DNA of 64,000 nucleotides, taken from the NCBI GenBank assembly GCA_030765065.1, contig CM060981.1, forward strand, positions 231,267,152 through 231,331,151, in the 5' to 3' direction. Shown piece by piece: positions 4,299 through 61,749 of the stretch. Numbering within the stretch: position 1 is the stretch's first letter; the number at the start of each line of letters is the position of its first letter. The notes beneath the pieces were generated by a model. It did no database searches, was not told where the DNA came from, and was given only the letters and a program-made list of their open reading frames with translations. The translations under genes and the position numbers were made by a program. This DNA is from Deroplatys truncata (taxonomy: Eukaryota; Arthropoda; Insecta; Mantodea; Mantidae).

Positions 4299-4766
4299 CC
4301 GAGCAGGATGGCTAGGTGGTAACGTCTGTGGCCCGCACTCTGGAGGTCGTGGGTTCGATTCCCGAGGCCGACCTTACCACCCATGGGGTTTTTCGGGGAT
4401 TACCTCGGTCGCCAGGCTAATGCCTGGGAAGAATCATTACATCCCCCGAGCTTTCTGTCCCACCATTTCATCTCCATTCTGATTTCACTTCTGTTTGGTT
4501 TCTTTCAGGGTTGCAAGTGTCGACGGGAGGTCTCGGCATATGCATGGCAGAGGAAAAGGTTGCTTTGAGAAAACCTTCGTCCTCGGACTGCGAACGGTCT
4601 CTGGGTCCCGGGACCTCCAGGCATGCCCTCCTGGTGCGGCCGCCATCTGTCTCCTCTCACCTCATCCCTCCCTCCCGAGAGTGCCCTGTGGTGGGTCTAG
4701 GTACAAAAGATCTGCATAGGTCGAGGCGCTAAGTCCCCCTCCGTTTCTAGTCCTATCCTAAGTGTG
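4299..4766 (+). mobile_element. Long tRNA-headed SINE, about 470 bp
   Basis: The head reads CCGAGCAGGATGGC with B box GTGGGTTCGATTCCC. The body begins CCCATGGGGTTTTTCGG, followed by CGCCAGGCTAATGC, a pyrimidine-rich block and a GC-rich distal third. It is the same family as the SINEs at 8803, 19273, 29715, 47015, 50645 and 60818. AAGTAAATAGAAA (4271) and AAGTAAACAGAAA (4767) may be the duplicated target. Frames inside it are not genes. Confidence 0.8.
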
Positions 4767-4825
4767 AAGTAAACAGAAAAATATGCTCTTGCAAGAATAA
4801 TTTGCGGATGCTATTTAAATAATAT

Positions 4826-6500
4826 AATATGTTACATGGACATGACCTTCTCTATCGTTTATTTTTATATGTATAGCTTTTGAATACTATTCTTATAAAA
4901 TACTCTGCTCCATTACACATTTTACTATAGGTGCAAGAGAGCTGACTATATGCTGGCGTTGAAATTCCATGATATCGCAAGAAACAACTGAATGGCGACA
5001 GTGCTGCTAAAGATACCAAGTATAGCAAAACTCAAATGGTGGATGTTCTTTACCCCCCAAAAGAGAAACAGAATAGAAAATGAATACATACATATTTGAA
5101 ATAATTTCTGCTTTAAAGACATCTACGTTTTTGGTGTATGTTGCATACCTGTTACATTTTAGCGGTTAAATAAAATTACACAACGTTTATTCAGAAGGAA
5201 CAGGACTTTACAGTTTTTTCAAAGAAAAATCAAGATATGCATTTTACTACTCATGTAAATATCTTAAACATTTGGTATTTTAATCAAAATCGAATGAGGC
5301 GTTTCCTAACAAATAAAAAATAATGAATATTTTTCCATGTAAACAGCAGTTTCGAGTGTAGAATTTCGTCAAAAACCTTCGTGTCCGTGTCGCATCTTTG
5401 GAAGTTGCTGAACTTAAACTCGAAGTTTGGTATCTATCCGACAATTCACTTTTTACTTTCTCTACTACGTATAGTAAGTGGAGGAAGTATTGTGAACCAC
5501 CCAAAAATTCAATAACGAGATATCACCGCAAATATATGTTTTGAAGCCCCCTGAATCCAAAAAAAAGCATTTTTGCAAACATGTCTGTGTGCGTGTCTGT
5601 GAACAGCATAACTCAGAAATGAACAGTCGGATAAACACAAAACTTGGTATTCAGGTTCAGTATCTTCCAGAGATGCGACAAGAAGGTTTTAGAGAAAATC
5701 CCCCCCACCCCAGTTTACCCTTTACATGGAACATTTTTCGAACATTTTAATTTTCTCAAAAATGGCTCTAACGGTTTCCATTAAAATATCATATGTTTAA
5801 GATATTTTTATGACAAATGAAATGCATATCTCGAATTTTCTGAGAATGTCTCCAAAAGTATTCTTCATTGTGAACGACTTTTGCATAACTGGTAAACCAT
5901 AAGAGATAGACAAAATTTTACTATACAAAAATGTAAATCGCGTTAAAATACACAATTTATGCCATATACATTTTTGCTGTTGAGTGAACCATTTTCGAGA
6001 TATTGCTTGTTATTCTCTTAAATTTTCCAATACTTATATACTTTTTCTCAAATTCGTTATTCATTTTTTTTATGTACTGGACATGCAAAGAATGGGATAC
6101 TCCACATAGCAACCACCTCTTAAAATATTTGACTATAGCTTAAAGCCTACCAATTCCCCTTACATCTACAAGAAAATTAGCAATAAGATTAACATCTCGA
6201 TATCTCGATTAACATGAAGCATATGGAGAATAAGCGTTTGTAAAAATAGTTTGTAAAAGAGTAGAGAAAGTCATGTGAGTGTAACACATCAGATTTTTTG
6301 TTCTGATGTTCACAAGCTCAGATCCACGCACACAAGATTACATATGTACACGCAGCAAGAACCTTTTTCTGAGAATAATAGTTTTGAATTCAGGGGACCT
6401 GAAAACATGTATTTCCGTTGAAATCTCAATATAGAAGTTTGATTGAACTACCATACTTCCTACATCTACTCTAAGTAGGAGCTAGAGGAGGTAAGAAATT
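4826..6500 (-). mobile_element. HINE-like subfamily B copy, interrupted by an A copy
   Basis: The outer copy consists of 4826-5454 and 6300-6500. Subfamily B is told from A by blocks such as TTAAAATTTCATACTG and CGCGAGAAACAGCTGAA near its 3' end. The break falls in the T-run of the family block CGTTTTTGAGTTATG, after which the rest of the CA region and the 5' terminal block follow at 6300-6500. Both ends are diverged. Confidence 0.75.
5455..6299 (+). mobile_element. HINE-like element, full-length inner copy
   Basis: A near-complete copy of about 845 bp, from TTTTTACTTTCTCTACTACG to GTAACACATCAGATTTTTT. It shows the 5' inverted repeat, terminal palindrome, short TG block and 3' hairpin. It sits in a T-run of the surrounding subfamily B copy, with T-runs retained on both sides. 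Confidence 0.85.
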
Positions 6501-7402: not shown

Positions 7403-8222
7403 ATTACTTTCTCTACTACGTATAGTAAGTAGGGGAAGTATTGTATTCCACCCAAAAATTCGATACGGAGATTTCGCCGGAAATATATGTTTTGAGGCCC
7501 CCTGAATCCAATAAAAAGCATTTTTGGAAACATGTCCGTGTGTGTGTCTGTGAACAGCAAACTTGGTATTTAGGTTCAGTATCTTCCAGAGATGCTACAC
7601 GAAGGTTTTCAAGAAAATACCCCCGCCCCAGATTACCCTTTACATGGAACATTTTTCGAAAATTTTAATTTCTTCAAAATAGCTCTAACGATTTTGATTA
7701 AAATATCATATATTCAAGATACTTTCATGACAAATGAAATGCATTTCTTGAATTTCATGGGAATGTCTCCAAAAGTATTCTTCATTATGAACGACTTTTG
7801 CATAACTGGTTAACCATAAGAGATAGACAAAATTTTACTACACAGAAAATGTAGATCGCGTTAAAATACACAATTTATGTCATATACATTTTTTTTGTTG
7901 AGTGAACCATTTTCGAGATATTGCTGGTTATTCTCTTGAATTTTCCAATACTTATACTTTTTCTCAAATGGGAATTGTTATTCATTTTTTTTTGTCCTGG
8001 TAATGCAAAGAGAATGGAATACTCCACATAGCAACCAGCTCTTACAATATTTGACTATTGCTTAAAGCCTACCAATTTCCCTTGCATCTACAAGAAAATT
8101 AGCAATAAGATTAACATCTCGATATCTCGATTAACATGAAGCATATGGAGAATAAGCGTTTGTAAAAATAGTTTGTACAAGAGTAGAGAAAGTCATGTGA
8201 GTGTAACATATCAGATTTTTTT
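7403..8222 (+). mobile_element. HINE-like element, full length
   Basis: About 820 bp from TTACTTTCTCTACTACG, through the palindrome and TG block, to GAGTGTAACATATCAGATTTTTTT. It is one of the best copies for defining both ends. Several short frames overlap it on both strands; none resembles a protein domain. Confidence 0.85.
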
Positions 8223-10099: not shown

Positions 10100-10918
10100 T
10101 AAAAAAGTCTGATGTGATACATTCACATGACTCTCTCTACCTTCTATGTTTGTTAGTGGGTATAGAAATTATTCTTACAAACGTTTCTTTTTCTATCTAC
10201 TTCATTTTAATTGAGATAAACTTTTGCAGAAATAGCTGTATTAGATATTTCGTTAGGGTATAAAGGGAACACCGATTAGTTAAGTGTTTAAGAAGTCCAC
10301 CCTATATGCTGGCCTTAAAATTTCATACTGTTTCTATGCAATCGCGAGAAACAGCTGAAAATCGATGGGACTTTAAGAATGACAAAGTATTGAACAAATC
10401 AAACCATTAATAACGCATATCTCGGAAATAGCTGATGCCGCAAAAAAGTTATTTGAAAAAATTGTGTGTTTTAGAGGGCTCTGCATTTTTTGTGTGGCAC
10501 GTTTTCGTCTATCGCTTAACGTTTACCAGTTATACAAGATTATACAAAATTCCTTCCGAATGCAGAGGACTTCAAGACTATTTCCAGAAAATTCAAGACA
10601 TATATTTTATTTATCGTGTAAATATCTTTAATATATCGTATTTTAATCAAAATCATTACAACCATTTTTTAGAAAATAAAACATTTCGAAAAATGCTCCA
10701 TGTAAAGGATAGTTTGTGGTGGCGGAGTTTTCTTGAGAACCGACACACACACACATACACACATACACACACACACACACACGGACATGTTTCCAAAAAT
10801 ACTTTTTTTTTGGATTCAGGAGGTCTCAAAACATGTATTTCCGGTGAAATCTCGGTATCGAATTTTTGGGTGGAATGCAATACTTCCCCTACTTACTATA
10901 CGTAGTAGAACAAAGTAA
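10100..10918 (-). mobile_element. HINE-like subfamily B copy
   Basis: It runs from AAAAAAGTCTGATGTG to the 5' palindrome and AAAGTAAAAA. Its hairpin reads ATGTGA-TACAT-TCACAT, a longer stem and different loop from subfamily A but at the same place. Sequence between the TCTTGAGAAC block and the CA array is deleted. The last 180 bp face the next copy head to head, suggesting local rearrangement. Confidence 0.8.
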
Positions 10919-11713
10919 AAATTTTTGGAAACATGTCCGTGTGTCTGTCTGTGCGTGTCTGTATGTGTGTCTGTGAACAGCATAACTCAGAAACGAACAG
11001 TCGGATAAACACCAAACTTGGTATTTAGGTTCAGTATCTTCCAGAGATGCGACACGAAGGTTTTCAAGAAAATCCCCCCACCCCAGATTACCCTTTACAT
11101 GGAACATTTTTGAAAATTTTAATTTTCTCAAAAATGGCTCTAACGATTTTGATTAAAATATCATATGTTTAAGATATTTTCATGACAAATGAAATGTATA
11201 TCTAAAATTTTCTGGGAATGTCCCCAAAAGTGTTCTTCATTGTGAACGACTTTTGCATAACTGGTAAAGCATAAGAGATAGGCAAAATTTTACTATACAA
11301 AAGATGTAGATCGCGTTGAAATACACAATTTATGTCATATACATTGTTTTGTTGGGCGAATCATTTTTGAGATATTACTTGTTATTCCTTTAAATGTTCC
11401 AATACTTTTTCTCAAATTCGTTATTCATTTTTTTACTGGTAATGCAAAGAGAATGGAATGCGGTACATAGCAACCAGCTCTTAAAATACTTGACTATCGC
11501 TTAGAGCCTACCAATTCCCCTTACATCTACAAGAAAATTAGCAATAAGATTAACATCTCGATTAACATGAAGCATATGGAGAATAAGTGTTTGTAAAAAT
11601 AGTTTGTACAAGACTAGAGAAAGTCATGTGAGTGTAACACATTAGGTTTTTGAGTTATAGTGTTAATGCAATACCTTCTATACGTACTATGTACGTGGTA
11701 GAAAAATTAAAAA
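10919..11713 (+). mobile_element. HINE-like copy, 5' end missing, plus flanking fragment
   Basis: 10919-11651 is an A copy starting at TTTTTGGAAACATGTCC, so its first ~115 bp are absent, and ending CACATTAGGTTTTT. Directly after, 11652-11713 reads GAGTTATAGTGTT and then a decayed 5' end of a minus-strand copy. The A copy therefore sits in the TTTTTGAGTTATG site of another copy, as at 5455. Confidence 0.75.
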
Positions 11714-15521: not shown

Positions 15522-15625
<104 letters not shown>

Positions 15626-15759: not shown

Positions 15760-18543
15760 CAAATTATTAAAAAAAGGAACAGAGTTTAAATATTTATTTC
15801 TAAAGAACGATAATAGATCGACATATGAACATCACTGGATAGAGGAAAGTTCAAAGTTTCAATATGAGACCCATTTATTATGCGAGGACCAGTGTTTTTC
15901 CCTTTGCATATTCTTCTACGAATCTCTTGTATCAATTGTAAATTTGTTTATGACGAGTTGACTCTTTGTCGAACTTACAATGAAATGCACGCTGTACTAA
16001 AACAATGGATTCTTTACCTTTTCTTTTAAAGCCTTCTCCACTCTTCAGCAGTTGCCTGTTTTCCCATTCGCCATTCTTCCCGATTGAACAAGTCATCCTC
16101 CTCCAGGCATCGATCATTCATCATTCTATGAATCTGTCCTCTCCAGGTTGCTCTTGGCCTACCTCGCTTTCTTCTTCCACGAGGTGACCATTCTAAAAAG
16201 GTCTTAGGACACCTATCATCCTCCATTCTTTTCATATATCCATACCATTGAATACCGCGCCTTTCAATTATCTCCCGCTCTGTTTCCTCCATATTCATCA
16301 TCTGTCTCTTCACTTCTCCTTCTTTTCATCCCTGATAGTCTAGCACTACGTCTTATGCCGTCCATTTCAACTGCCAAGATCTTAGATTTTTGTCCCTCTA
16401 CCAAGTCCACGCCTCAGCACCATAGGCCATTATACTTTCCACCACAGTCCTCAAGATCCTTTTTTTTGTACAAATCGACATGGATCTACTCCACAAAAGC
16501 CCATTCAACATTTTTATAGCTCTTCGTGCTTGTTCTATCCTATTGTCCACATCCACTTTACAGCTACCTACTTCATCAATAAGCGATCCCAAATATTTAA
16601 AGTTTTTAACATCTTTAATAATTCCTTGGGGTAGTGAGATGTCCCGTCCACTTCCTCCTACTACCAGTAATTCCGTTTCATCCATATTTACTCGTACCGT
16701 CCTAGTTCAAGCACATCCAAAATTTTCCGTTATATATTTCACATCCTCACGATTCTGAGCCATCACCACCTGGTCATCTATAAATAGTACAGTACCACCT
16801 TGAACTGGTATACCCATACCTCCACAGGACCGATTCCATATTTTTAGTACATGTTGAATATATATTTTAAATCAAGTAGGGGACATACTACAACCTGTAT
16901 TAGGCCTTTTGTGGTTCTGAATGGAAAGGATAATATCTTCCCTATTTTAACAGAAGCCTGACACTGTTGGTACAACCGCCGAATAAGTTAGATCATTGGT
17001 AACTCAATACCAATTACCCACCATTGTGTCCCATAGCTAATTAATAGGCACTGAGTCATAGGGCTTTTCTAAATCAACAAATATCAAATGTATCTCTTCA
17101 CCCTTTGCATGTGATTTTTCTGTAATCTGTCCCACACTAAAAATATGCTCCATACATGATTTTTCTTTTGTAAATCTTGCTTGATCTTCTAACATTTTCC
17201 CCTCGTTAGTATGTTCCAATCTGTTTGTAATAATAGTGCTGAAAACTTTACTAATAGACGACATTACACCATTCCTCTATAATTTACAGGGTCTTTACAA
17301 TTCCCTTTGTATATACAGGTGCTTTTGTATCTCATCACCCTCTAAAATCTGGTTGAACATTTTACATATCAATCTTTTGAATATAGGCGTTCCATATTCC
17401 ACAATTCTATCTTTATTCTACCAGGACGACTAGCTATTCCATTCTTTGCTTTTTTCAATGCCTGGTTTACTTCTTCCTCCAAAATGGGTTTTACACATAA
17501 TTATTATCACCATGCTTAGTATTTTCACTCAATTTCCCCTTTCTGATCTACATCAATAGATTTTTAAAATGTTTCTCCCATTGTTCCACACTTACAAGAT
17601 TTATAATTCTCTGCTGATCTATATCCTAATGATTGATCAATTTCGGCACAAACCTTTTCCCACGATTCTTCTTTACACTTTCTTATAACTTTCTTTAGCT
17701 GCTTCTTACATTCTCTATACCTTTTTAAATCTTCTTCACTCTTGCCATTTAACCACTGATAATACAGTCAGTTTTTTTCCTTAATAATTTCCAATGATTC
17801 TGTAGACATCCACTCTGTCCTTCCCACATTTCTTTTCTCCCTTCCCAGGCTTCCTCAGCTACTCCACTAACACATTATTTTAAAAAACCATAGAGGTCTT
17901 TAGCATTCCAATTCTCTTCTACTATTTTTTATCTTTCCTTATATAGGTATCGCACACTATCTTCCTGTAATAAATGCACCATATATCTTGCGTCATTTAT
18001 ATTAATTGTTTCTTTATTTTTTCAAATTTCATTCTTTTTTGATTTAGTTTTCCTTGGAAAGGTGATTTTAGAGACAACCATATAACGGTCCGATCCACAT
18101 TCTAACTTCCTCCGCAGTCTAACATATTGTATTTTGATCAAACGTTCTTGTCTTACTATTACATAGTCTATAATAGATCTCAAATTCCTGAAAGGGTTTA
18201 CCCAGGTGTATTTGTGAATGTCTTTATGCTTAAACTTTGTTATCATGATGGCACATTCCTGCTCTCTACAGAATTCATTTATTCTCCTCCCATTGTCATT
18301 TTCTATATATTGGATTCACTAAATGGATTCACTTGTTGCATATCATAACTCGCAAAACCACTTTTCCTGTAGCGTCAGTCTTCTAATAAATAAATCGCAG
18401 CGCCGTGTAGCAATTCAATGGAACCAATTGGGGGCTTAAAACTTTGAACTTTCCTGTATCGGTGATATATCTATGTTTCGCTACCTACTGTCGTACATTG
18501 GGAATTTATATTTAATATCTGCCCCTTCCTTTTGAATAATCCT
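15760..18543 (-). mobile_element. Mariner-type element split by a LINE
   Basis: The terminal repeat at 15760-15860 (AGGAACAGAGTTTAAATATT) is inverted at 18440-18543 (TTTAATATCTGCCCCTTCC). The same ends and interior occur uninterrupted in the 480-bp copy at 29219-29698. Short stretches of an N-terminal transposase (VQRAFHCKFD, 15932-16000) survive on the minus strand. Positions 16013-18321 are a LINE inserted in the coding region. Confidence 0.8.
16013..18321 (-). pseudogene. 5'-truncated LINE: endonuclease end and reverse transcriptase
   Basis: Read 5' to 3' on the minus strand: the end of an endonuclease domain (TWVNPFRNLRSIIDYVIV, SDRYMVV; 18022-18246); RT fingers and motif A (QARFTKEKSC, VDLEKPYDSVP; 17037-17264); an RT active-site box decayed to FIDDQVV (about 16790); a C-terminal FKYLGSLIDEVG block (16398-16685); and GRPRATW (16026-16313). 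Frameshifts and stops separate them. AATGGATTC at 16004-16012 and 18322-18330 is the target duplication. CR1/Jockey- or RTE-like; the clade is not resolved. Confidence 0.85.
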
Positions 18544-22147: not shown

Positions 22148-22470
22148 GTGTGTTTAGTAGCAAGTGGTGTCCTCATTTGCAATATTCTTTGGTAAATGGC
22201 AAGAGTAACCGTATGTTTGCTTATTATCTTCTATTGGTAGGCCCAATCTCCGCCATTCACCGCACATTGGTTTTCGTATTTTGCGAGAGCGCGCTCGCAT
22301 CTCCTCAGTAATCGAGCGCGCACGGCCCACTAGAACGCCGGCAGATTTGAAATAGTCCGCACTGTATTTTTACTTTCCCTGCTACTTATAGTAAGTAGGG
22401 AAGTGCTGCATTCCACCCAAAAACTCGATACAAAGATTTCACCGAAAATATGTTTTGAGACCCCTGAATA

Positions 22471-23368
22471 AAAAAAAAAAATCTGATGTGTTACACTCAC
22501 ATGACTTTCTCTACTCTTGTACAATCTATTTTTACAAACGCCTATTCTCCATATGCTTTATGTTAATCGAGATATCGAGATGTCAATCTTATTGCTAATT
22601 TTCTTGTAGATGCAAGGGGAATATGGTAGCTTTTAAGCGATGGTCAAATATTTTAACGCTGGTTGCTATGTGTCGAATTCCATTCTCTTTGCAAGTCCAG
22701 GACATAAAAAAATGAATAACGAATTTGAGAAAAAGTATAAGTATTGGAAAATTTAAGGGAATAACAAGCAATATCTCGAAAACGGTTCACTCAACAAAAG
22801 AAATGTATATAACATAAGTTGTGTATTTTAACGAGATCAACATTTTTTGTGTAGTAAAATTTTGTCTATCTCTTATGGTTTACCAGTTATGCAAAAGTCG
22901 TTCACAATGAAGAATACTTTTGGAGACATTCCCAGAAAATTCGAGATATACATTTCATTTCTCATGGCATTATCTTAAACATATGATATTTTAAACAAAA
23001 TCGTTAGAGCCATTTTTGAGAAAATTAAAATTTTCGAAAAATGTTCCATGTAAAGGGTAGTCTGGGGTGGGGGGATTTTCTTGAAAACCTTCGTGTCGCA
23101 TCTCTGGAAGATACTGAACCTAAATACCAAGTTTGGTGTTTATCCGACTGTTCGTTTTTGAGTTATGCTGTTCACACACACACAGACACACACACAGACA
23201 CACACACACACAGACACACAGACACACACACGGACATGTTTCCAAAAATGCTTTTTTTGGATTCAGGAGGTCTCAAAACATGTATTTCCGGTGAAATCTC
23301 GGTATCGAATTTTTGGGTGGAATGCAATACTTCCCCTACTTACTATACGTAGTAGAGAAAGTAAAAAC
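22471..23368 (-). mobile_element. HINE-like element, full-length inner copy
   Basis: It runs from AAAATCTGATGTG to GTAGAGAAAGTAAAAA, about 898 bp, with an intact ATGTG-TTACACT-CACAT hairpin, a CAGACACACA array and the full 5' palindrome. It reads in the opposite direction to its host copy. Confidence 0.9.
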
Positions 23369-23384
23369 AGGTTTAGACAAAGGC

Positions 23385-23386
<2 letters not shown>

Positions 23387-23431
<45 letters not shown>
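23387..23431. repeat. (GT)n microsatellite of a HINE-like copy
   Basis: Pure GT run at the position where every full HINE-like copy carries its dinucleotide array; it belongs to the outer copy. Confidence 0.9.
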
Positions 23432-23433
<2 letters not shown>

Positions 23434-23959
23434 TGATCAACATAACTCAAAAGCGAAAAGTCGGATAAATACCAAACTTTGTATTTAGGTTCAGTATTTT
23501 TCAAAATGCGACACGAAGACTTTCGAAAATCCCCTACCTCACACTACTCTTTACATGGAACATTTTTGGAAAATTTTGATTTTCTCAAAAATGGCTCTAA
23601 CGATTTTGATTAAAATATCATATATTTAAGATATTTTCATGACAAATAAAATGTATATCTTGAACTTTCTGGGAATGTCCCCAAAAGCCCTCTTCTTTCT
23701 CAATGGTCTTTTCATAACTGTAAACCGTAAGAGATAGGCACAATTTTACTACGCAAAAAATTTAGAGCTCGCTCGTTAAAACACACAATTTATGTCATAC
23801 GCATTTTTGTTTTGTGGAGTGAACCTTTTCCGAAATATTCCTTGTTATTTGCTTGAATTTTCCAATAGTTATACTTTTCCTCAAGTGGGAATTCGTTATT
23901 TGTTTTTTTATGTCCTGGATATACAAAGAGAAGAAAGCTTCACATAGCAACCAGCTCTT

Positions 23960-24144
23960 TTTTTTTTTAAAAAAAAGAAGTTCCCTTGTACCCAGTTTAT
24001 GCTACTGTGTTTTACTGTTTTCATACCGCTTATTTCCGCAACACACATACATACACAAACACCCATGCCCGTGGCGGGACTCGAACCCGCGACCCTAAGC
24101 TTAGGGGAGCGACCACTCCAGCGACCACGGCTACGAGGGCCGGC
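23960..24144 (-). mobile_element. Short tRNA-headed SINE, about 185 bp
   Basis: On the minus strand the head reads GCCGTGGTCGCTGGAGTGG, and the T-arm GCGGG-TTCGAGT-CCCGC is perfect. A short body leads to an A-rich tail that appears as the T/A run near 23960. The surrounding HINE-like sequence resumes at CTCTTAAAAG. It is a third SINE type, unlike the 290- and 500-bp families. Confidence 0.7.
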
Positions 24145-24290
24145 ATCTCTTAAAAGATTTCACTGTCGCTTAAAGCCATACGATCATTTCTGCAAATGGT
24201 TTATCTCGATTAACATGAAGCATATGGAGAATAAGCGTTTGTAAAAATAGTTTGTATAAGAATAGAAAAGTCATGGGAGTGTAACAAATT

Positions 24291-24972
24291 TTATTATTTT
24301 AATTCCTGGTGTAATAATATCACGAGATAACTACACATTATGGTCACGGATTTTCATGTAGGATTCATAGCTAATTACATCATCTTGCAGGGTTGATTGC
24401 GTATGATTTGTAACAGAATGCCCAGGTGTGCGACCTCCAAGCAGAGAAGGCACATGAAAACTAAATAAATCCAGGAAACGGCTTCAGTTCTCGATAGGAA
24501 CCAAAATTAAAGGGGCACATGTTTGTGGAGAAGAAATTAGACGAAATTTGTGAACGATTAAAACTCTTGTCAAAAATGTCTGCGAATGTCATGTCATTTT
24601 AATGAGTTCAGCGTAGGGAGGTAATTAATTCTTACATTTGAACTATAGAAGATCCTGTTCTTCACGAACTGCTGTCATGTAGTAAGCAGAGTCTACTAGA
24701 TTTCTATAACTGAATTTTAGGAATTGATCTAAATTTAATAATATTCTCTGAGAAGCATGGTTCCAATTATGAGGAATAAACGATATTGGAACAAGGAAGA
24801 ATCGAGGAAACCCCATTACCTCAGAACGAAATCTCTCATAAGATCAGTTTGTGTATCGTACGTAAAATAAAATGAATTTATTTCCGGTGTTTCGTAAAGT
24901 ACTTTTCGTAAGTCTGTTTTCTTATTTTTATGCTCCGTAGATATTTTTGTGTAGTGATCGTATAGGTCATTC
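24291..24972. other. Unassigned sequence
   Basis: AT-rich, no long open frame, no repeat shared with the rest of the window that I can see. Confidence 0.35.
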
Positions 24973-30824: not shown

Positions 30825-31784
30825 CAGAATGTAATAAAAATGTATGGCACAAATTGCAGGACACATTCCTCACAATAGACGAAAAAATTATGTTATATGA
30901 ACATGGGGCTGGAAACGCTTTGTTTCCATGTTACAACTCATTTTCTTCAACTCATTAATCATGGGAAACGCACACGAACAGAATGTTAGAATCATGGGGA
31001 ACATGCACCCTTGGTTACGTCTGGTTACGTTGTCATTATCGTAGGTGCACCGCCAGTGTTTTGTTTTACATGTCCCTGTTCCCATGCGACTAACATCATT
31101 GATTGTTTACAGGTAACATCAACTGTTCCAGTGAGCAGTACGACCTTGACAAGCACACGGGTTACTACGTACTAGTAGAGTTGACCACAGACTTGACTCG
31201 TGTAATGGCAGTGTAGAGAAATGCAGAGATGGCAGATGTCCATTTGATGTATGGATTAGCAGACGGCAATGACGCTTGCGCTCAACGTTTGTACCGGGAG
31301 AGATTTTCAGGACGAAGGTGCCCCGACAGGAAAACATTTGAAGCCATTGATCGTCGTCTTAGGGAACATGGGGCATTTCAGTCTGATACTCGCAACCTGT
31401 GGAGGCCTAGAAGGACGACGACACCGCAACGGGAGGTGGCAATTCTTCAGGCAGTTGACGACGACCCTAGTGACAGTACAAGACAAGTAGCTGCAACAAT
31501 GAATGTTGCCCACATGACTGGCGAGTGTTACACGAGATCCAGCTGTATCCATACTATTTAGAGAGTGTATGCAGGCACTATCAGCAGCTGATTTTCCTGC
31601 AGTTGCATGCGGTATGCTGGTACGTTCTAATTTTGTGTGTTTACCATGATTAATGAGTTGGAGACAATGAGTTGTAACATGTAAACAAAGCGTTTCCAGA
31701 CCCATGTTCATATAAAATAATTTCTTTGTCTACGTGTGAGGAATGTGTTCTGAAATTTGTGCTGTACATTTTTGTTACATTCTG
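30825..31784 (+). mobile_element. Mariner-type element with very long inverted repeats
   Basis: The ends CAGAATGTAATAAAAATGTA (30825) and TACATTTTTGTTACATTCTG (to 31784) begin inverted repeats of about 160 bp, sharing GGAAACGCTTTGTTT and CAACTCATTAATCATGG. TA follows the right end. The interior is short and contains the N-terminal part of a transposase only, so this is a non-autonomous derivative. Confidence 0.85.
31229..31561 (+). pseudogene. Mariner-type transposase N-terminus
   Basis: The first ~50 residues are a DUF4817-type helix-turn-helix: MADVHLMYGLADGN, then RLYRERFSGRRCPDRKTFE. A second HTH-like stretch follows (REVAILQAVDDDPS, TRQVAATMNVAHMT). The frame ends where the DDE/D core should begin; the catalytic domain is deleted between here and the right inverted repeat. 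Confidence 0.85.
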
Positions 31785-32900: not shown

Positions 32901-34105
32901 CACTATATGATCAAAGGTATACACACACCCCACAAATATACGTTTTTCATCTTAGGTGCATGGTGCTGCCAACTACTGCCTGGTACTCATTATCCGCAAC
33001 CTCAGTAGTCATTAGACATCGTGAAAAACCAGAATGGGACGCTCCGTGGAACTCACGGACTTCGAACGTGGTCAGGTGATTAGGTGTCACTTGTGTCAGA
33101 AGTCTGTACGCAGGATTTCCACACTCCTAAACATACCTAGGTCCACTGTTTCTGATGTGATAGTGAAGTGGAAACGTGAAGGGACATGTACAGCACAAAA
33201 GCGTACAGGCCGGCCTCGTCTGTTGACTGACAGAGACCGCCGATATTTGAAGAGGGTCGTAAAGAGTAATAGGCAGACATCTATCCAGACCATCACATAG
33301 GAATTCCAAACTGCATCAGGATCCACTCCAAGTACTATGGCGTGAGCTGAGAAACCTTGGATTCCATGGTCGAGTGGCTGCTCATAAGCCACACATCACG
33401 CAGGAAAATGCCAAACGACGCCTCGCTTGGTGTAAGGAGCGTCAACATTACACGATTGAACAGAGGCAAAACATTGTGTGGAGTGACGAATCACGGTACA
33501 CAATGTGGCGATCCGATGGCAGGGTGTGGATATGGCGAATACCCGGTGAACGTCATCTGCCAGCGTGTGTAGTGCCAACAGTAAAATTCAAAGGTGGTGG
33601 TGTTATGGTGTGGTCGTGTTTTTCCTGGAGGGGCTTGCATCCCTTGTTGTTTTGCGTGGCACGATCACAGCGCAGATCTACATTGATATTTTAAGCACCT
33701 TCTTGCTTCCCACTGTTGAAGAGCAATTCGGGGATGCCGATTGCATCTTTCAACGCGATCGAGCACCTGCTCATTCTGCACGAGCTGTGGCGGAGTGGTT
33801 ACACGACAATAACATCCCTGTAATGGACTGGCCTGCACAGAGTTCTGACTTGAATCCTATAGAACACCTTTGGGATGTTTTGGAACTCCGACTTCCTGCC
33901 AGGCCTCGCCGACCTCAGTTCCGCACTGCCATTCCCCAAGAAACCTTCCAGCACCTGATTGAAAGTATGCCTGCGAGAGTGAACGCTGTCATCAAGGCTA
34001 AGGGTGGGCCAACACCATACTGACTTCCAGCATTACCGATGAAGGGCGCCACGAACTTGTACGTCATTTTCAGCCAGGTGTCTGGATACTTTTGATCACG
34101 CAGTG
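32901..34105 (+). mobile_element. Tc1-like element, 1205 bp
   Basis: Inverted ends CACTATATGATCAAAGGTAT (left) and, reading inward, CACTGCGTGATCAAAAGTAT (right) extend over about 29 bp. TA duplications flank both (32899-32900, 34106-34107). Length and layout are those of a full Tc1 element with one transposase gene, which is broken. Confidence 0.93.
33034..34023 (+). pseudogene. Tc1 (DD34E) transposase, three lesions
   Basis: The N-terminus shows two HTH motifs (LTDFERGQVIRCHL, STLLNIPRSTVSDVI) and the GRPR linker. The catalytic triad is readable: D in WSDESRY (about 33480), D in RDRAPAH (about 33765) and E in NPIEHLW, with 34 residues between the second D and E. A stop lies at 33298-33300, a frameshift near 33330-33370, and another in a G-run near 33630. 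Length matches the family at about 340 codons, so decay is recent. Confidence 0.93.
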
Positions 34106-35964: not shown

Positions 35965-36865
35965 TCTGATTTTTTTTCTTTTAGAGTCCGTTGCTAAATG
36001 GAGATTTTACTAATTCACTTACTTTGTTCGTGTTTATAACTTGCACATATAACTGGATATTCACTTACATTCTACACACCGTTACACTGGTTTAGTTACC
36101 TGACTTCACAGTGAGACATAACGTCGTTGGACTGAACTGTTACTACACGAAGATGAACAGAAATACTTGAGTATTGTTTTGAAAACTGGCGCTCAACACA
36201 TCGTAAATACGTTAGTTTTTTTGTACTATGGTGGGTGAGATACCGTGTATTGAATCATTACCAATTACCCTGTTGCTGTGAAATGTACAAATATTGAAAT
36301 AATGCCTCTTAATTTCAAAACCTAATGGCATAATTATATTAAAAATCATATATTTGTATTTATAAGGATATTTTGGTAATTATTTCTGCATTCGATTTAA
36401 GCATTGATTTGCCTTTCCAAATGCATTAGCATTAACTTGCAGCAAGATGGTGACATTGTATTAAAGGAAGGTTGAGCGGGGAATATATTCTTCCATTGTT
36501 GTTAGATTCTATGTTTTACTGCGCTCTAGCGGGTGGAACATAAGCTCTGAGTCAGAGCAATGTTTGCCCCACTTCTCCCATAAGAATCATGTAGAAATGT
36601 ACACCCTAGCCTTATACACAGTGCTTATGAGCATAGACGGTGTCAACCTGGAATTGGCTCCAAGCTTCACAAAACTACCGGCAGAGCGCCCGCCTCTTCA
36701 AACGAGGAAACACATACTCGGAAACAATGTTTTATTCACAATTCCTATACACCTCTCTTTTTCTCTTTTTGACACAAGTGGTGCCATGGCACAACGGCAC
36801 TACTCCAGAAGCCGCCCTGGGAATAGACTTCCTAGATCCCCAGGAAAAGATTATAGGAATAAAAA
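35965..36865. other. Unassigned sequence
   Basis: Frames of about 120 codons at 36564-37008 run from this stretch into a HINE-like copy and are therefore not credible genes. No other signal recognised. Confidence 0.35.
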
Positions 36866-37732
36866 ATCTGATGTGCTGCACTCACATAACTTTCTCTACT
36901 CTTGTACAAACTATTTTTACAAACTATTTTCTCCATCTATTTCATGTTAATCGAGATAAACATTTGCAGAAACTTATTACTAATTTTCTTGTAGGGGGAA
37001 TATGCTAGGCTTTATGCGACAGTGAAATCTTTTAAGAGCTGGTTGCTATGTGGAGCATTCCATTCTCTTTGCATGTCCAGGACATAAAATAAAAACAAAG
37101 AAAGAAAGAAAAAAAACGAATAACGAATTCCCATTTGAGAAAACGTATAAGTATTGATAAATTCAAACAAATAACAAGGAATATCTCGAAAATGGTTCAT
37201 TCGACAAAAAAAGTATATGACATAAATTGTGTGTTTTAACGAGATCTACATTTTTGTGCAGTAAAATTTTGTCTATCTCTTGGGTTTACCAGTTATGCAA
37301 ATTTAATTCAGATTGAAAACGACTTTTGGAAACTTCCTAGAAAATTCAAGACATACATTTCATTTACCATGAAAATATTTTAAACATATATATTTTTATC
37401 AAAATCCTTAGAGCCATTTTTGAGAAAATCAAAGTTTTCGAAAAAACATTCCATGCAAAGGGTAGTCTGGGCTGGGGGGATTTTGTTGAAGATCTTCGTT
37501 TCGCATCTTTGAAAGATACTAAATCTAAATACCAAGTTTGGTATTTATCCAACTTTTCGTTTTTGAGTTATGCTGTTCAAAGACACATAGACACACACAT
37601 CTTTTTCTAAAAATGCTTTTTTGTTTAATTAAGGGGCCTCAAAAAAGTATTTCCGGAGAAATCTCGGTATCGAATTTTTGAGTGGAATGCAATACTTTCC
37701 CTACTTACTATGCGTAGCAGAGAAAGTAAAAA
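36866..37732 (-). mobile_element. HINE-like element, full length
   Basis: From AAAAAATCTGATGTGCTGCAC to GTAGCAGAGAAAGTAAAA, about 867 bp. Both ends are present; the hairpin loop carries substitutions (ATGTG-CTGCACT-CACAT) but the stem is intact. The CA array is very short in this copy (GACACATAGACACACAC). Confidence 0.9.
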
Positions 37733-38261: not shown

Positions 38262-39062
38262 TTTTACTTTGTCTACTATGTAGAGTAAGAGATTTCAACA
38301 GAAATGTGTTTTGAGGCCCCCTGAATCCAAATAAAGCATTTTGGAAACATGTCTGTGTTCTGTGTGTTTGTGAACAGCATAACTCAAAAACGAAATGTCG
38401 GGTAAGTACCAAACTTGGCATTTAGGTTCTATATCTTTCAGGGATGCGACACAAAGATTTTCAAGAAAATCCTCCACTCTCAACTACCCTTTACATGGAG
38501 CATTTTTCGAAAATTTTGATTTTAAAAACATTTTCTGAAATTTTTTTGATTAAAATACCATATATTAAAGACAACTACATGACAAATAAAATGTATATCT
38601 TGAATTTTCTGGGAATAGCTTTTGAAGTCCTTTTCATTCGGAAGGAATTTTGTATAATTTGTACAATGCTAAACGTTAAGCGATATACGAAAACGTACTA
38701 CATAAAAATGTAGATCTCTTTAAAACACACAATTTATTTCAAATAAGTTTTTTCGTGCCATTAGCCATTTCCGAGATTTCCGTTATTAATGGTTCGTAAG
38801 TCCTTTCAACATTTAGTTGTTTCTTGCGATTGCATGGAAACAGTATGGAATATTAAGGCTAGCATATAGCATCCAGTTCTTAAACATATGACTATCGCTG
38901 TTCTCTTTATACCCTAACGAAATGTATAACCTAATTATTTCTGCAAGGTTTATTTGGATAAAAATGTAGTATATAGAGAAATAAGTTTTATTAAGACTAG
39001 TTTATATACCCAGTAATAAAGATAGAGGGTAGAGAATGTCAGGCGAATGTATCACGTCATGT
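38262..39062 (+). mobile_element. HINE-like subfamily B copy
   Basis: It starts TTTTTACTTTGTCTACTATG and ends near GTATCACGTCATG. Subfamily B blocks (GTTATTAATGG, TTGTTTCTTGCGATTGCATGG) lie in the 3' half. The terminal palindrome is eroded (CTATGTAGAGTAAGAG). Confidence 0.8.
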
Positions 39063-39551
39063 ATTTTAATTTTCTGCAAGTAATATTGTTTTCCTGTCTT
39101 CTGCAATTCGTAAAATGTGTACCCTTTAATGCGTCTTAAAGTTCACATTAGTATTTAAGATAAGATTTAGCGTGACTAATCACACAGCAGGTCAATTTAT
39201 CTACGTAACCTGAAAGTCTAATAACAGTGACCAATATTCTATTACAAAGTACATGCATGAATTATGGACATATTTATTACAATTTATCAGAACATTTTTC
39301 ACACCTAGTTCTACCTCGCATTACGGTAGAAAATTAGCTCTCTCTTTATCTATTTGATTGATATAATTTTTATACATATATGTATAGTAAATTAATCAGA
39401 AGGAATGAAACAGAAACAATGATTCCACGTTTAACTGTACAACACTTAACGTAACGGGAACAAGATTATATTTCAGAATACAAAACCGAAGACACGCAAT
39501 ACAGAGAGTTTAAGATATAGCCGATTATAAATAATTTATAAGTAACTTATA

Positions 39552-44172: not shown

Positions 44173-44885
44173 AATTACTAGAAGTATTGACGAATGAACG
44201 AACCCAATAGTAACATACATAAATATCAAAGATCCTGTAGCCCAATATAAATTAAAGCCAGTATGCACCCGCAATATTTATTATGAGTATTGTCAATATG
44301 AATCATGTAGCAGGGGATTTCAGATTGCGGAAGGTACAATGTATTGTACCAGATAATTAGTGCTTAGTTTCCGCAAAACATAATTTAATATGTGGTTTGT
44401 TTCAACGGTTATAGCAACTGCTTTCTACTGCATTTGGAATTTAGCACCTACCGGTTTCTTAATGAATTTATGATTAAGCAAAAAATATTTGCTGGTTCAA
44501 GTTTTAGTCACAGAGAAAGTTATTGGAAGAGCTTTCGGTTTCGGTTTAGTATTGACCGAGAAGGGAAAATGAGTAGGAATACTTACGAAATGACTTACTT
44601 AAGACGAGTATTTACTATAATCCCGAATGAATGAAGAATTATTTAAACAGGAGATGTTGGCTCGACGAAGTCATTTTGTGCAACCTTTTTAGCGACTGTG
44701 TTTATATAGCAGAACCTGGCGACATTTTGTGATAGGTTTGTGGGCTAAAGGTCGCTAAATGACATATATCGTATAAAGACGCTGAAAACTAAAGTAAGGG
44801 TTTAGCTTCACAGATCCTACAGCTGCGCCCTGTTGTAGTTCCGCAGTTATGACCTAAACTGCTTCACTCCCCTACTCATTAAAAA
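44173..44885. other. Unassigned sequence
   Basis: An 80-codon frame (44392-44634) is open but unrecognised. No repeats seen. Confidence 0.3.
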
Positions 44886-45738
44886 AAATGTTTGATGTGA
44901 TACATTCAATGACTTTCTCTACCCTCTATTGTTTATTAGCGAGTGTACAAACTATTCTTACTCAAGCTTATTTTTCTATCTACTACATTTTTATCCACAT
45001 AAAACTTTACAGAAATAGCTACATTACGCATTTGTTATAGATTCAAAGAGAACAGCAATAGTCAAATGGGCGCTATATGCTAGCCTTAAAATTTCATACT
45101 GTTTCCATGCAATCGCGAAAAACAACTGAATGTTGAAAGGACTTTAAAGAATGACCAGAATTGAAAATTTGAACATTTAATAACGGATATCTCAGAAATG
45201 GTTTATGCCACAAAAAACTTATTTGAAATAAATTATGTGATTTAAAGAGATCTACGTTTCTTGTGTAGTACGTTTTCGTCTATCGCTTAGCGTTTGCCAG
45301 TTACATAAATTTATACAAAATTCATTCCGAATGAAGAGGACTTCAAAGGCTAATCCCCAAAGATTAAGATGTACATTTTATTTTTTATGTAAATATCTTT
45401 AACAAGTGGTATTTTATTAAAAATCGTGTCGTAATTCTTTAGAAAATCAAAATTATCCAAAAGACGTTGCGGTGGGGATTTTCTTGAAAATCTTCGTGTT
45501 GCATCCTTGGAAGATACTGAACTTCAATATTTGGTACTTGTCCAACTTTTCGTTTTTGAGTTATGCTGTTCACAGGCACACAGACACTTAGATAAGCACA
45601 CGAATCCTCTTCTAAAAATGCTTTTCTTGGATTCTGGGGCCTCAAAACATGTATTTCCTGTGAAATCTTGGTAACGAATTTTTGGGTGGAATGCAACATA
45701 TTCTCTACCTACTATGTACGTGGTAGAGAAAGTAAAAA
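44886..45738 (-). mobile_element. HINE-like subfamily B copy, near full length
   Basis: From AAAAATGTTTGATGTG to GGTAGAGAAAGTAAAAA. Its terminal palindrome reads CTACCTACTATGTACGTGGTAG. The CA array is short (CACAGGCACACAGACAC). One base of the 3' hairpin stem is lost (ATGTGATACATTCAATG). Confidence 0.85.
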
Positions 45739-47510: not shown

Positions 47511-48305
47511 ATAATCACTAGGCCCGGCATCATCAACTGTCCAGTAGTTCGATTCTGAGCGTGGTATTGACAGCCGTGCAGCGATATTGAGCAGGTAGAA
47601 GGTAGCGATATTGATATTTCACCGAAAATACATGTTTTGAGACCCCTGAATAAAAAAAGTATTTTTAGAAAAATGTCCGTGTGTGCCTGTGAACTCAAAA
47701 ACGAAATGTCGGATTACCAACCTTGGTATTTCAGTTTCAGTATCTTCCAAAGATGCGGCACGAATATTTTCAAAAAACATTCCCAACCACAAACTATCCT
47801 TTACATGGAGCATTTTTCAAATCTTTTTATTTTCTGAAAAAATGGCTAAATATTTTGATTAAAATATTATATATTAAAGACATTTACATGACAATAAAAT
47901 GTATATCTTGAGTTTTCTGAGAATTTTCAAGTTCTTTTAATTCGGAAGGAAATTAAATAATCTTGCATAACTGGTAAACGGTAAGTGAATACACGAAAAC
48001 GTACTGCACAAAAAATGAAGACCTCTTTTAAACATACAATTCATTACAATAGCTTTTTTGTGACATCAACCATTTCTGTGATATCCGTTATTAATGGTTC
48101 GAATTGTTCAATAATTGTTTTAAGTGCTGTCGATTTTCAGCTGTTTCTCGCGATGTCATGGAAAGCGTCCAATGGTATTTTGAGGCCGGTATACAGCATC
48201 CAGTTCTAAAACAATTGACTGTCGCTATTTCCTTTGTATGTATAATGAAATGTGTGAGGCAGCTATTTCTGGAAAGATTTATCAGTATTATAATGAAATA
48301 GATAG

Positions 48306-50106
48306 AAAAAAATCTGATGTGTTACACTCACATGACTTTCTCTACTCTTGTACAATCTATTTTTACAAACGCCTATTCTCCATATGCTTCATATTAATCG
48401 AGATATCGAGATGTCAATCTTATTTGTAATTTTCTTGTAGATGCAAGGGGAATATGGTAGCTTTTAAGCGATAGTCAAATATTTTATCGCTGGTTGCTAT
48501 GTGGCGCATTCCATTCTCTTTGCATGTCCAGGACATAAAAAAAAAATCTGATGTGTTACACTCACATGACTTTCTCTACTCTTGTACAATCTAATTTTAC
48601 AAACGCTTATTCTCCATATGGTTCATGTTAATCGAGATATCGAGATGTCAATCTTATTGGTAATTTTCTTGTAGATGCAAGGGAAATATGGTAGCTTTTA
48701 AGCGATAGTCAAATATTTTAACGCTGGTTGCTATGTGGCGCATTCCATTCTCTTTGCATGTCCAGGACATAAAAAAAATGAATAACGAATGTGAGAAAAA
48801 GTATAAGTATTGTAAAATTTAAGGAAATAACAAGCAATATCTCGAAAACGGTTCACTCAACAAAAGAAATGTATATGACATAAGTTGTGTATTTTAACGC
48901 GATCTACATTTTTTGTGTAGTAAAATTTTGTCTATCTCTTATGGTTTACCAGTTATGCAAAAGTCGTTCACAATGAAGAATACTTTTGGAGACATTCCCA
49001 GAAAATTCGAGATATACATTTCATTTCTCATGACATTATCTTAAACATATGATATTTTCATCAAAATCGTTAGAGCCATTTTTGAGAAAATTAAAATTTT
49101 CGAAAAATGTTCCATGTAAAGGGTAGTCTGGGGTGGGGGGATTTTCTTGAAAACCTTCGTGTCGCATCTCTGGAAGATACTGAACCTAAATACCAAGTTT
49201 GGTGCTTATCTGAGTGTTCGTTTTTGAGTTATGCTGTTCACAGACACACACACAGACACACACACACACAGACACACAGACACACACACGGACATGTTTC
49301 CAAAAATGCTTTTTTTGGATTCAGGAGGTCTCAAAACATGTATTTCCGGTGAAATCTCGGTATCGAATTTTTGGGTGGAATGCAATACTTCCCCTACTTA
49401 CTATACGTAGTAGAGAAAGTAATGAATAACGAATTTGAGAAAAAGTATAAGTATTGGAAAATTTAAGGAAATAACAAGCAATATCTCGAAAACGGTTCAC
49501 TCAAGAAAAGAAATGTATATGATATAAGTTGTGTATTTTAACGCGATCTACATTTTTTGTGTAGTAAAATTTTGTCTATCTCTTATGGTTTACCAGTTAT
49601 GCAAAAGTCGTTCATAATGAAGAATACTTTTGGAGACATTCCCAGAAAATTCGAGATATACATTTCATTTCTCATGACATTATCTTAAACATATGATATT
49701 TTCATCAAAATCGTTAGAGCCATTTTTGAGAAAATTAAAATTTTCGAAAAATGTTCCATGTAAAGGGTAGTCTGGGGTGGGGGGATTTTCTTGAAAATCT
49801 TCATGTCGCATCCCTGGAAGATACTGAACGCAAATACCAAGTTTGGTGTTTATCCGACTGTTAGTTTTTGAGTTATGCTGTTCACAGACACACACACACA
49901 CACACAGACACACACACAGACACACACACACACACAGACACACACACAGACACACACACACAGACACACACACGGACATGTTTCCAAAAATGCTTTTTTT
50001 GGATTCAGGAGGCCTCAAAACATGTATTTCCGGTGAAATCTCGGTATCGAATTTTTGGGTGGAATGCAATACTTCCCCTACTTACTATACGTAGTAGAGA
50101 AAGTAA
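48306..50106 (-). mobile_element. HINE-like subfamily A copy, middle layer
   Basis: 48306-48540 and 49423-50106 join as one copy. The left part ends GTCCAGGACATAAAA and the right part begins ATGAATAACGAATTTG, which are adjacent in uninterrupted copies (for example near 48770). The long CAGACACACA array is at 49885-49975. Confidence 0.92.
48541..49422 (-). mobile_element. HINE-like subfamily A copy, innermost layer
   Basis: A full-length 882-bp copy with intact hairpin (ATGTG-TTACACT-CACAT) and 5' palindrome. It is inserted in the A-run of GGACATAAAAAAAATG of the middle copy. Similarity to its host is very high, indicating recent activity or conversion. It defines the element ends exactly. 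Confidence 0.93.
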
Positions 50107-50196
50107 TAAACTTTCGCAAAAATAATAATCACCACTAATAAGCGATAGAGGGTAGAGAAAGTCGCGTGAATGTAACGCATGAGATTTTTTCATTTG

Positions 50197-53170: not shown

Positions 53171-53339
53171 TTATAACTTCACAACCTTTCTTGTCAAATT
53201 GCTTCCAGTACTTTTAGTCTTGAAAGCAAATGACATGCTCTAAACGGTCAAAGATTTGACAATGACATGATAGCTTTGGCCAATGAAATGTGAGTATTTA
53301 GAGTGTGTCACGAAATCTGCAACATGGCTGAAAGAGAAA

Positions 53340-54248
53340 AAAAATCTGATGTGTTACACTCACATGACTTTCTCTACTCTTGTACAAACTATTTATACAA
53401 ACACTTATTCTCCATCTATTTCATATTAATCGAGATAAACATTTGCAGACTCTATCTTATTGCTAATTTTCTGGTAGATGTAAGGGGAATATATATTTAC
53501 AAGGGCAATATAGAAATACAGTAGCCTTTAAGCACATACATATCTCTTAATAGTTGGTTGCTAGGTGCAGCACTATTCCCTTTGCCACAGATTAATACTC
53601 TTTGCATATCCAAGACAAAAAAATGAATAACGAATTCCCATTTGAGAAAATAAGTATTGAAAAATTTAAGGGAATAACAAGCGATATCTCGAAAATGGTT
53701 CACTCAACAACAAAACTGTATATGACATAAATTGTGTATTTTAACGCGATCTACATCTTTTGTGTAGTAAAATTTTGTCTATCTCTCATGGTTTACCAGT
53801 TTACCAAACGTCGTTCACAATGAAGAATACTTTTCGAGACATTCCCAGAAAATTCAAGATATACATTTTATTTGTCATAAAAATATCTTAAACATATGAT
53901 ATTTTAATCAAAATCGTTAGAGCCATTTTTGAGAAAATTAAAATTTTCGAAAAATCTTCCATGTAAAGGGTACTCTGGAGTGGGGGGATTTTCTTGAAAA
54001 CCTTTGTGTCGCATCTCTGGAAGATACGGAACCTAAATACCAAGTTTGGTGTTTATCCGACCGTTCGTTTATGAGTTATGCTGTTCACAGACAGACACAC
54101 AGACACACACATGGACATGTTTCCAAAAATGCTTTTTTTGGATTCAGGGGATCTCAAAACATATATTTCCGGTGAAATCTCGGTATCGAAATTTTGGGTG
54201 GAATACAATACTTCCCCTACTTACTATACGTAGTAGAGAAAGTAAAAA
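53340..54248 (-). mobile_element. HINE-like element, subvariant with extra block
   Basis: Full copy from AAAATCTGATGTG to GTAGAGAAAGTAAAAATG. It carries an extra segment (ATTTACAAGGGCAATATAG, AGATTAATACTCTTTGC) not found in ordinary A copies but shared with 62074-62751, so these two form a subvariant. Confidence 0.9.
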
Positions 54249-55210: not shown

Positions 55211-55213
55211 AAA

Positions 55214-56053
55214 AATCTGATGTGTTACACTCACATGACTTTCTCTACTCCTGTAGAAACTATTTTTACAAACGCTTATTCTCCATATGCTTCATGTTAA
55301 TCGAGATGTTAATCTTATTGCTAATTTTCTTGTAGATGCAAGGGGAATGTGGTAGGTTTTAAGCGATAGTCAAGTCTTTTAAGAGCTGGTTGCTATGTGG
55401 CGCATTCCATTCTCTTTGCATGTCCAGGAAATAAAAAAATGAATAACGAATTTGAGAAAAAGTATAAGTATTGGAAAATTTAAGGGAGTAACAAGCAATA
55501 TTTCTAAAATGGTTCACTCAACAACAAAAATGTGTATGACATAAATTGTGTATTTTAACGCGATCTACAATTTTTGTGCAGTAAAATTTTGTCTATGTCT
55601 TATGGTTTACCAGTTATGCAAAAGTCGTTCAAAATGAAGAATACTTTTGGAGACATTCCCAGAAAATTCGGGATATACATTTCATTTGTCATGAAAGTAT
55701 CTTAAACATATGATATTTTAATCAAAATCGTTAGAGCCATTTCTGAGAAAATTAAAATTTTCGAAAAATGTTCCATGTAAAGGGTAATGGGGTGGGGGGA
55801 TTTTCTTGAAAACCTTCGTGTCGCATCTCTGGAAGATACTGAACCTAAATACCAAGTTTGGTGTTTATCCGACTACTCGTTTCTGAGTTATGCTGTTCAC
55901 AGACACACAGACACACACACGGACATGTTTCCAAAAATGTTTTTTTTTTTTGGATTCAGGGCGTCTCAAAACATGTGTTTCCAGTATCGGAATCGGATTT
56001 TTGGGTGGAATACAATACTTCCCCTAGTTACTATACGTAGTAGAGAAAGTAAA
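55214..56053 (-). mobile_element. HINE-like element, full length
   Basis: From AAAAATCTGATGTG to GTAGAGAAAGTAAAAATG, about 840 bp; short CA array and a small deletion in the block before the 5' palindrome (TTTCCAGTATCGGAATCGG). Directly abuts the LINE fragment. Confidence 0.9.
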
Positions 56054-59423: not shown

Positions 59424-60252
59424 AAAAAGCTGACGCGTTACACTCACATGACTTTCTCTACTCTTGTACAAACTATTTTTACAAACGCTTATTCTCCATA
59501 TGCTTCATCTTATTGCTAATTTTCTTGTACATGCAATGGGAATGTGGTAGGCTTTAAGCGATAGTAAAATATTTTAAGAGCTGGTTGGTATGTGGAGTAT
59601 TCCATTCTCTTTGTATGTCAAGGACATAAAAAAAACCAAATAACTAATTCCCATTTAAAAAAAGTATAGGTATTGGAAAATTCAAACAAATAACAAGAAA
59701 TACTTCGGTAATGAATCACTCCAAAAAAATGCACCTATATGACTAATTGTATGTTTTAACGAGTTCTACATTTTTTGTGAACAAAAATATTTTGTCTATC
59801 TCTTAGGGTTTACCGGTTATTCAAAGCCATTCAGAAAGAAGAGGATTTTGGGGTAATTCCCATAAAATTGGGAAACCATAAGTGGTTTTACTTATCATGA
59901 AAATATCTTAAATATATGACATAACCAAAATCGTTAGAGCCATTTGTTGTAACAAATCAAAATTTTTGAAAAATGTTCCATGTAAAGTGTAGTCTGGGGT
60001 GAAGGATTTTCTTGAAAATCTTCGTGTTGCATCTTCGAAAGATACTGAAACTAAATACCAATTTTGGTACTTATCTACTTTTTGTTTTTGAGTTATGTTG
60101 TTCACAGAAATACACGGACCTTTTTCTAAAATTTCTGCTTTTTTTGGATTCAGGGTGCCTCGAAACATGTATTTCCGTTGAAATCTCCGTATTGAATTTT
60201 TGTGTGGAATGCAATACACCCCTACTTACTATACGTAGTAGGGAAAGTAAAA
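59424..60252 (-). mobile_element. HINE-like element, full length
   Basis: From AAAAAGCTGACGCGTTACACTC to CGTAGTAGGGAAAGTAAAAAA. Array shortened to a few CA units (CACAGAAATACACGG). The hairpin stem is weakened by C replacing T (ACGCG-TTACACT-CACAT). Confidence 0.85.
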
Positions 60253-61341: not shown

Positions 61342-61749
61342 CCATACGTCGAGCAGGATCTCCAGGGTACAACCTTTGTGTTGTATGTCGTTTGTACGGA
61401 TGCTACTGCAGGTTGTACTTGCTTATTCTGTTCACTCTCGCAAGATCCAATTGCAATTCATGAGTAACAGTCCCGCAGCTTACATCAGGATGTGCGACAA
61501 TGTCTCTAAGGCATTGGTAACCGCAGGATTCCTCTGACGCACGCGTATTCTTCGCATGAAGCATTTTGTTCTTCCAATAGGAATTTTTGCTAATGACTAT
61601 TAATCTATTATTTTATATTCATACTTACCTATATATCTTGTAATCGGAGTTAAGGAGATTAAATTCTCGATAAATGCCCCGTTTATTCAATGAGCCTGTT
61701 TTAAATACATAAAATACAGGTTCAACAAAACCTAAAATACACTCTTTAA
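61342..61749. other. Unassigned sequence, possibly continuation of the 63.3-kb coding segment
   Basis: If the nested HINE-like copies are removed, the minus-strand sequence just below 61746 would follow the recombinase-like segment. It reads plausibly but not convincingly in one frame (KECILGF then VEP), so no gene is called. Confidence 0.25.

Follow-up and report, generated by a model that had tools for sequence, protein, structure and literature searches.

The repeat at positions 7404-8222 (plus strand) is one of many similar ones in the window, by which we mean the whole 64,000-nucleotide stretch of Deroplatys truncata DNA analysed here, and it raises the question of what kind of transposon is so abundant at one locus. 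Seven copies used as BLAST queries gave 36 merged stretches, amounting to 18,909 bp (29.5% of the 64-kb window); the family copies had no match in three control sequences generated with a second-order Markov model. The motif ACTTTCTCTAC, allowing at most one mismatch, was found 41 times in the window (mean of 1.32 and largest value of 5 in 100 shuffles). Chaining the matches by hand resulted in 35 elements or fragments, 15 of them with both ends; this list omits a 24-base BLAST stretch (1155-1178) and takes in a 3' end at 4817-4854. The preliminary description had put the number of copies, full or partial, at about 28; the family itself was recovered, and the gap between the two counts reflects the way in which fragments are chained. 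Uninterrupted copies with both ends measured 804-908 bp, one deleted copy measured 677 bp, and the body as well as the ends was common to the aligned copies. At about 30% of 64 kb, the family is a heavy transposon load on one locus.

We consider this family very probably a non-autonomous rolling-circle transposon of the Helitron2/Helentron branch and of the HINE/DINE-1 type. A helentron/HINE-type family without autonomy had already been proposed for this DNA, and the anatomy reported below (subTIRs, 5' inverted repeat, T-run target and no sign of coding) supports that proposal. It looks like a known kind of element, at most an undescribed family, and general understanding of rolling-circle transposition is unchanged by it. 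What it adds is a well-resolved HINE/DINE-1-type family in which four self-nested insertions double as empty sites.

The reported copy belongs to subfamily A and has both ends. The 5' end consists of TT, the subTIR ACTTTCTCTAC (7406-7416 in the reported copy, plus strand), a short spacer and a complementary repeat, which is GTAAGTAGGGGAAGT in subfamily A and GTAGGTAGAGAA in the subfamily B copy at 44882-45735 (minus strand, both ends). The subTIR and the adjoining complementary repeat make up the 5' hairpin (7406-7439, plus strand). The palindrome CTACTACGTATAGTAAGTAG, reported previously as a feature of its own, is present but forms the inner part of this longer hairpin, which spans the whole 5' subTIR. 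At the 3' end, the subTIR GTAGAGAAAGT (8183-8193, plus strand) is typically followed by CATGTGAGTGTAACACATCAGA and then by the T-run; approximately 22 nt, which include a small stem-loop and CAGA, separate the subTIR from this run. The termini of the family are therefore TTACTTTCTCTAC at the 5' end and GTAGAGAAAGT-stem-loop-CAGA-T(n) at the 3' end. Inverted repeats of 11 bp, terminal at the 5' end and about 22 nt internal at the 3' end, had been described beforehand, and this asymmetry was seen in the aligned ends. The family thus has two of the characters by which HINE/DINE-1 elements are recognised: subTIRs of 11 bp or more that are nearly terminal at the 5' end and internal at the 3' end, and an inverted repeat adjoining the 5' subTIR.

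The 5' hairpin was folded in two copies and gave z values of -2.95 (reported copy) and -3.74 (B copy 44882-45735). In an alignment of 13 of the 18 5' ends (8 distinct; ends with indels or lost repeats were excluded), the 5' helix was 85% paired, compared to 41-52% when slid. Two pairs with double changes were observed, a number equalled by 152 of 500 shuffles, indicating that covariation is not above that of the shuffles. The 3' stem-loop of the reported copy (8195-8211, plus strand) has a 5-bp stem and a 7-nt loop; the hairpin ATGTG-AGTGTAA-CACAT given in the preliminary description was confirmed by sequence, except that one stem base is decayed in the reported copy (ATGTG..CATAT). The five-pair stem was aligned in 22 of the 24 3' ends (19 distinct), excluding those of copies 22370-24300 and 61748-63246, whose stems are damaged; 85% of the cells paired, compared to 7-59% when slid. 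There were no compensatory pairs in these 22 ends, and all 500 shuffles paired equally often or better. The z value of the 3' stem-loop was 0.68 for the reported copy and -0.46 for a young copy, both of subfamily A and both folding weakly, and -2.90 for a B copy. The 5' hairpin is thus present, the 3' stem-loop is present by sequence but weak by energy in the A copies, and covariation within the family proves neither of them.

The (TG)n/GTCTG array noted earlier was found about 135 bp into the reported copy, where it is short (7538-7552, plus strand); its length varies among copies, and it is longer in several others. Other tandem repeats within the family were short two-copy ones, and a long central array was not seen. 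Tandem Repeats Finder indicated an array with a 234-bp unit at 48306-48778, which was considered as a rolling-circle tandem array and dropped, as nested insertion accounts for it: one copy inserted in another juxtaposes the last 234 bp of both copies. The family shows no sign of coding capacity, as in HINE/DINE-1 elements. The longest stop-free frame in a nine-copy consensus (860 bp) was 95 codons, and a stop-free stretch of 157 codons in copy 10101-10918 (at 10432-10905) had no Pfam match above cut-off. No Helitron or PIF1-type helicase was matched by Pfam in 57 scanned stop-free stretches, out of 303 in the window that measure 60 aa or more; weak matches to CKS and PRC2_EED_ins were below the curated cut-offs.

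Target sites were analysed in 18 curated 5' ends; opposite-strand palindrome matches, motif-poor ends and matches outside the BLAST copies (e.g. 43422) were dropped and two ends were added by hand. TT was directly upstream of the 5' subTIR in all 18 ends (background 11%), and this TT may be the element's own; TTT was present in 15 of them (background 4.6%). The base before the 5' T-run was A in 15 of the 18 ends, compared to 49% for the T-runs of at least three bases in the window (p 0.003). A constant run of five Ts (13 of 18 ends) was also considered and discarded, not being clearly unusual against the T-run lengths of the window. A T-run at the 5' end had been part of the preliminary description; this holds for the family but not for the copy placed there at 7403-8222, which is directly preceded by TT alone (CTTATT up to the junction, ACTTTC beyond it). 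At the 3' end, a run of at least four Ts was located at positions 16-30 past the subTIR in 23 of the 24 ends (background 13%), a count that is partly circular because the BLAST queries for most of these ends contained the run.

Four nested insertions served as paralogous empty sites. Copy 48540-49422 (minus strand, both ends) is nested within 48306-50106 (minus strand, both ends), which itself splits 47606-50190 (plus strand), a subfamily B copy whose 3' end is kept. Copy 22475-23364 (minus strand, both ends) is nested within the older copy 22370-24300 (plus strand), which is split both by it and by unrelated sequence containing a tRNA-like B box. Copy 62072-62748 (minus strand), which has both ends and is internally deleted, splits 61748-63246 (minus strand), which has both ends and has lost the 5' half of its 3' stem. 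In all four cases the break was in a T-run (read on the insert's strand) and no non-T base was duplicated. The filled site of insertion 48540 had 12 Ts, compared to 8 in the nearest paralogue and 7-9 in other copies; that of insertion 48306 had 9, compared to 5 in two B copies; and that of insertion 62072 had 13, compared to roughly 6-9 in other copies. In the case of insertion 22475, the host copy is too diverged for counting Ts. With four Ts gained at each of the two best-aligned empty sites, Ts carried by the element are indistinguishable from a TT duplication; Thomas and colleagues likewise describe the division of the Ts between the element's ends as unclear (PMC4067079). The T-run targets at the 5' and 3' ends, together with these four sites, bear out the earlier claim of insertion between Ts. 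Insertion in TT or T-rich sites without duplication of non-T bases is a further character of HINE/DINE-1 elements, and a pure TT duplication is compatible with it.

Further copies with both ends are located at 5453-6299 (plus strand), 10101-10918 (minus strand), 36861-37729 (minus strand), 38264-39067 (plus strand, B-like), 53338-54245 and 55211-56052 (both on the minus strand) and 59424-60250 (minus strand, more diverged). In the 15 both-ended copies, matches between the flanks anchored at the boundaries (T-runs set aside) comprised 0-1 base in 13, three bases in 10101-10918 and five in 36861-37729. The latter is the sole copy of the 15 with a five-base word (ATTCC) common to its flanks beside the T-runs, which may be chance or an odd insertion event. 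The 150-bp flanks of the 15 copies gave six same-strand matches, all of them in flanks that are other family copies, and the copies therefore look like separate insertions and not like the result of segmental duplication.

The same ends and target sites can be read as those of a MITE, mobilised by a DDE transposase of the cut-and-paste type with duplication of a 2-bp TT target. The element is short and has inverted repeats, the gain of four Ts leaves room for a TT duplication, and DINE-1 itself was once argued to be a MITE on similar grounds (PMC2374699). A decayed Tc1-like transposase is also present in the window (33025-34023); however, the family is absent between 25,528 and 36,861 (BLAST stretches in the window), so that this Tc1 remnant is not bounded by family ends. 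The inverted repeats are asymmetric, the 3' one lying about 22 nt internally and, in most of the 24 3' ends, having a stem-loop sequence of its own behind it, and a subterminal repeat of this type is called unusual for a MITE in PMC2374699. No consistent non-T duplication was found in the 15 both-ended copies. Terminal repeats and a short fixed duplication, which usually mark MITEs of the TIR/DDE kind, were not found, leaving a pure TT duplication as the form such an event could still take. Neither a DDE or reverse-transcriptase partner with the family ends nor fixed-length duplications were seen within the window. We consider movement as a MITE highly unlikely. Still less probable, to the point of deserving almost no weight, is a SINE or another retroposon moved by a LINE. 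The 3' T-run and the high copy number would suit such an element, but both ends are fixed in 15 copies, the boundary flank matches do not exceed five bases in any of them (tested to 12 bases) and ARAGORN and Rfam gave no matches in the window.

As a non-autonomous rolling-circle transposon, the family was compared with published elements of the HINE/DINE-1 group. In HINE-Mo, known from the mite Metaseiulus occidentalis, and in Helentrons, the subTIRs are described as lying 2-4 nt inside the 5' end but internally at 3', with a 3' palindrome, a T-rich target, an unmodified target in paralogous empty sites and no coding, all of which resemble the present family, the 3' palindrome by its sequence (PMC4067079). 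By contrast, HINE-Mo has 38-60 bp between its subTIRs and the 3' end, compared to about 22 nt up to the T-run here; these subTIRs are palindromic themselves and have no separate inverted repeat, and HINE-Mo has a known autonomous partner, while the present family is known from the non-autonomous copies of the window (PMC4067079). In DINE-1/INE-1 of Drosophila, PMC2374699 describes a subTIR with an adjoining partial inverted repeat, a GTCY-rich microsatellite in the 5' part and a 3' stem-loop a few nt past the 3' subTIR, as here, where the stem-loop is recognised by its sequence. Insertion takes place in TT within WTTTT in DINE-1/INE-1, compared to a T-run preceded by A in 15 of 18 ends of our family. 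DINE-1 differs in its subTIR (ATACCCGTTACTC in D. melanogaster, 13 bp instead of 11), in its stems (7-11 nt instead of 5) and in a long central tandem repeat that was not seen in the present family (PMC2374699). Cg_HINE of Crassostrea gigas is similar in its 11-12 bp subTIR, short spacer and complementary inverted repeat, in its left-flank microsatellite such as GTCY, in its 3' subTIR and palindrome and in its TT target without duplication; unlike the body of the present family, it has satellite-like arrays mid-element (PMC7492417).

Canonical Helitrons (Helitron1) are described as having a 5' TC, a 3' CTRR and insertion between A and T (PMC5148889); the ends of the present family are TTACTTTC and CAGA followed by a T-run, and it was not assigned to them. 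Within the preferred rolling-circle reading there is a sub-question, not exclusive of it, namely whether the driver is a Helitron2 without endonuclease domain, in which case the strict "HINE" label would be wrong. Helitron2 is described with asymmetric terminal inverted repeats, a hairpin at both ends and insertion between TTTT and T or C (PMC5148889), and five or six Ts precede 15 of our 18 5' ends. On the other hand, the microsatellite and the 5' inverted repeat fit the animal DINE-1/Cg_HINE plan, and Helentrons are reported to be widely distributed in invertebrates (PMC4067079). We regard a driver lacking the endonuclease as a minority possibility, rather unlikely but deserving real weight.

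From the anatomy of the family and published work on the group, we infer rolling-circle movement. A Rep-helicase supplied by an autonomous element, none of which was seen among the 57 stretches scanned, would recognise the 5' subTIR hairpin and nick at the TT junction; one strand would be peeled off during its replacement, peeling would stop at the 3' subTIR and stem-loop, and the single-stranded copy, perhaps circular, would be joined into a T-run. Common ends, T-run targets mostly after A and repeated dispersal, including nesting, are what is observed in the window. Joined-end PCR products are described for the fungal Helitron2-like FoHeli1, unconfirmed by rolling-circle amplification (PMC5148889).

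Divergence among the aligned subfamily A copies ranged from 2.5% (22475-23364 compared to 48540-49422) to about 20%, a spread suggesting that insertion came in more than one wave. The B copy 44882-45735 was 26-30% different from the A copies. In the last 60 bp, four B members were 62-69% identical to the A consensus; for two other A members the identity was 84 and 89%. Under a published rule, sharing a subTIR of 11 bp or more places elements in one family (PMC4067079); as the A copies and B copy 44882-45735 have the same 11-bp subTIR at both ends, they belong to a single family, in which there are at least two subfamilies.

Copy 10101-10918 combines a subfamily A 5' module with a subfamily B body. 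Its first two 75-column windows were 97-98% identical to young subfamily A, and the switch is placed, at or past the microsatellite, no more precisely than from about column 150 to about column 450 of the alignment. This chimera would make the microsatellite a swap point between subfamilies, a proposal that we hold to be improbable; it is a single case, and nested insertion followed by deletion explains it equally well. If this were general, template switching or recombination within the (TG)n tract could supply such elements with new 5' recognition ends, and a true swap point would help to explain the recurrent position of the microsatellite in DINE-1, the oyster elements and the present ones. 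The chimera is head to head with copy 10921-11651 (plus strand), which is without its first 117 bp; these were not seen just past the 3' end of the chimera.

Full-text search for five end sequences of the family gave no papers, a weak result as few papers print such sequences. Exact-pattern searches found no relative of the 3' end in IMG/VR or in GTDB genome contigs, nor of the 5' end in IMG/VR, and the reported copy had no relative among plasmids and phages; exact patterns and viral or prokaryote collections have little bearing on a eukaryotic family.

Several other features were observed in the window. The Tc1/mariner-type transposase at 33025-34023 (plus strand) is broken, in overlapping frames, and matched the Pfam families HTH_SB, HTH_Tnp_Tc3_2 and DDE_3. 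A helix-turn-helix DUF4817 match (Pfam, E 4.5e-6) was located at 31217-31558 (plus strand); repeats of arthropods commonly contain this domain. The tRNA-type B box GGTTCGANNCC was found four times, at 4352, 8351, 19710 and 24077 (0.16 expected), without any tRNA detected by ARAGORN; these sites are perhaps tRNA-derived SINEs, and one of them sits inside copy 22370-24300. Minus-strand stop-free stretches in 16001-18315, which we take to be similar to LINE remnants, had no Pfam match, and GC skew was strong (-0.40) at 16001-18000. A perfect (TAC) microsatellite of 34.7 units is present at 15522-15625.
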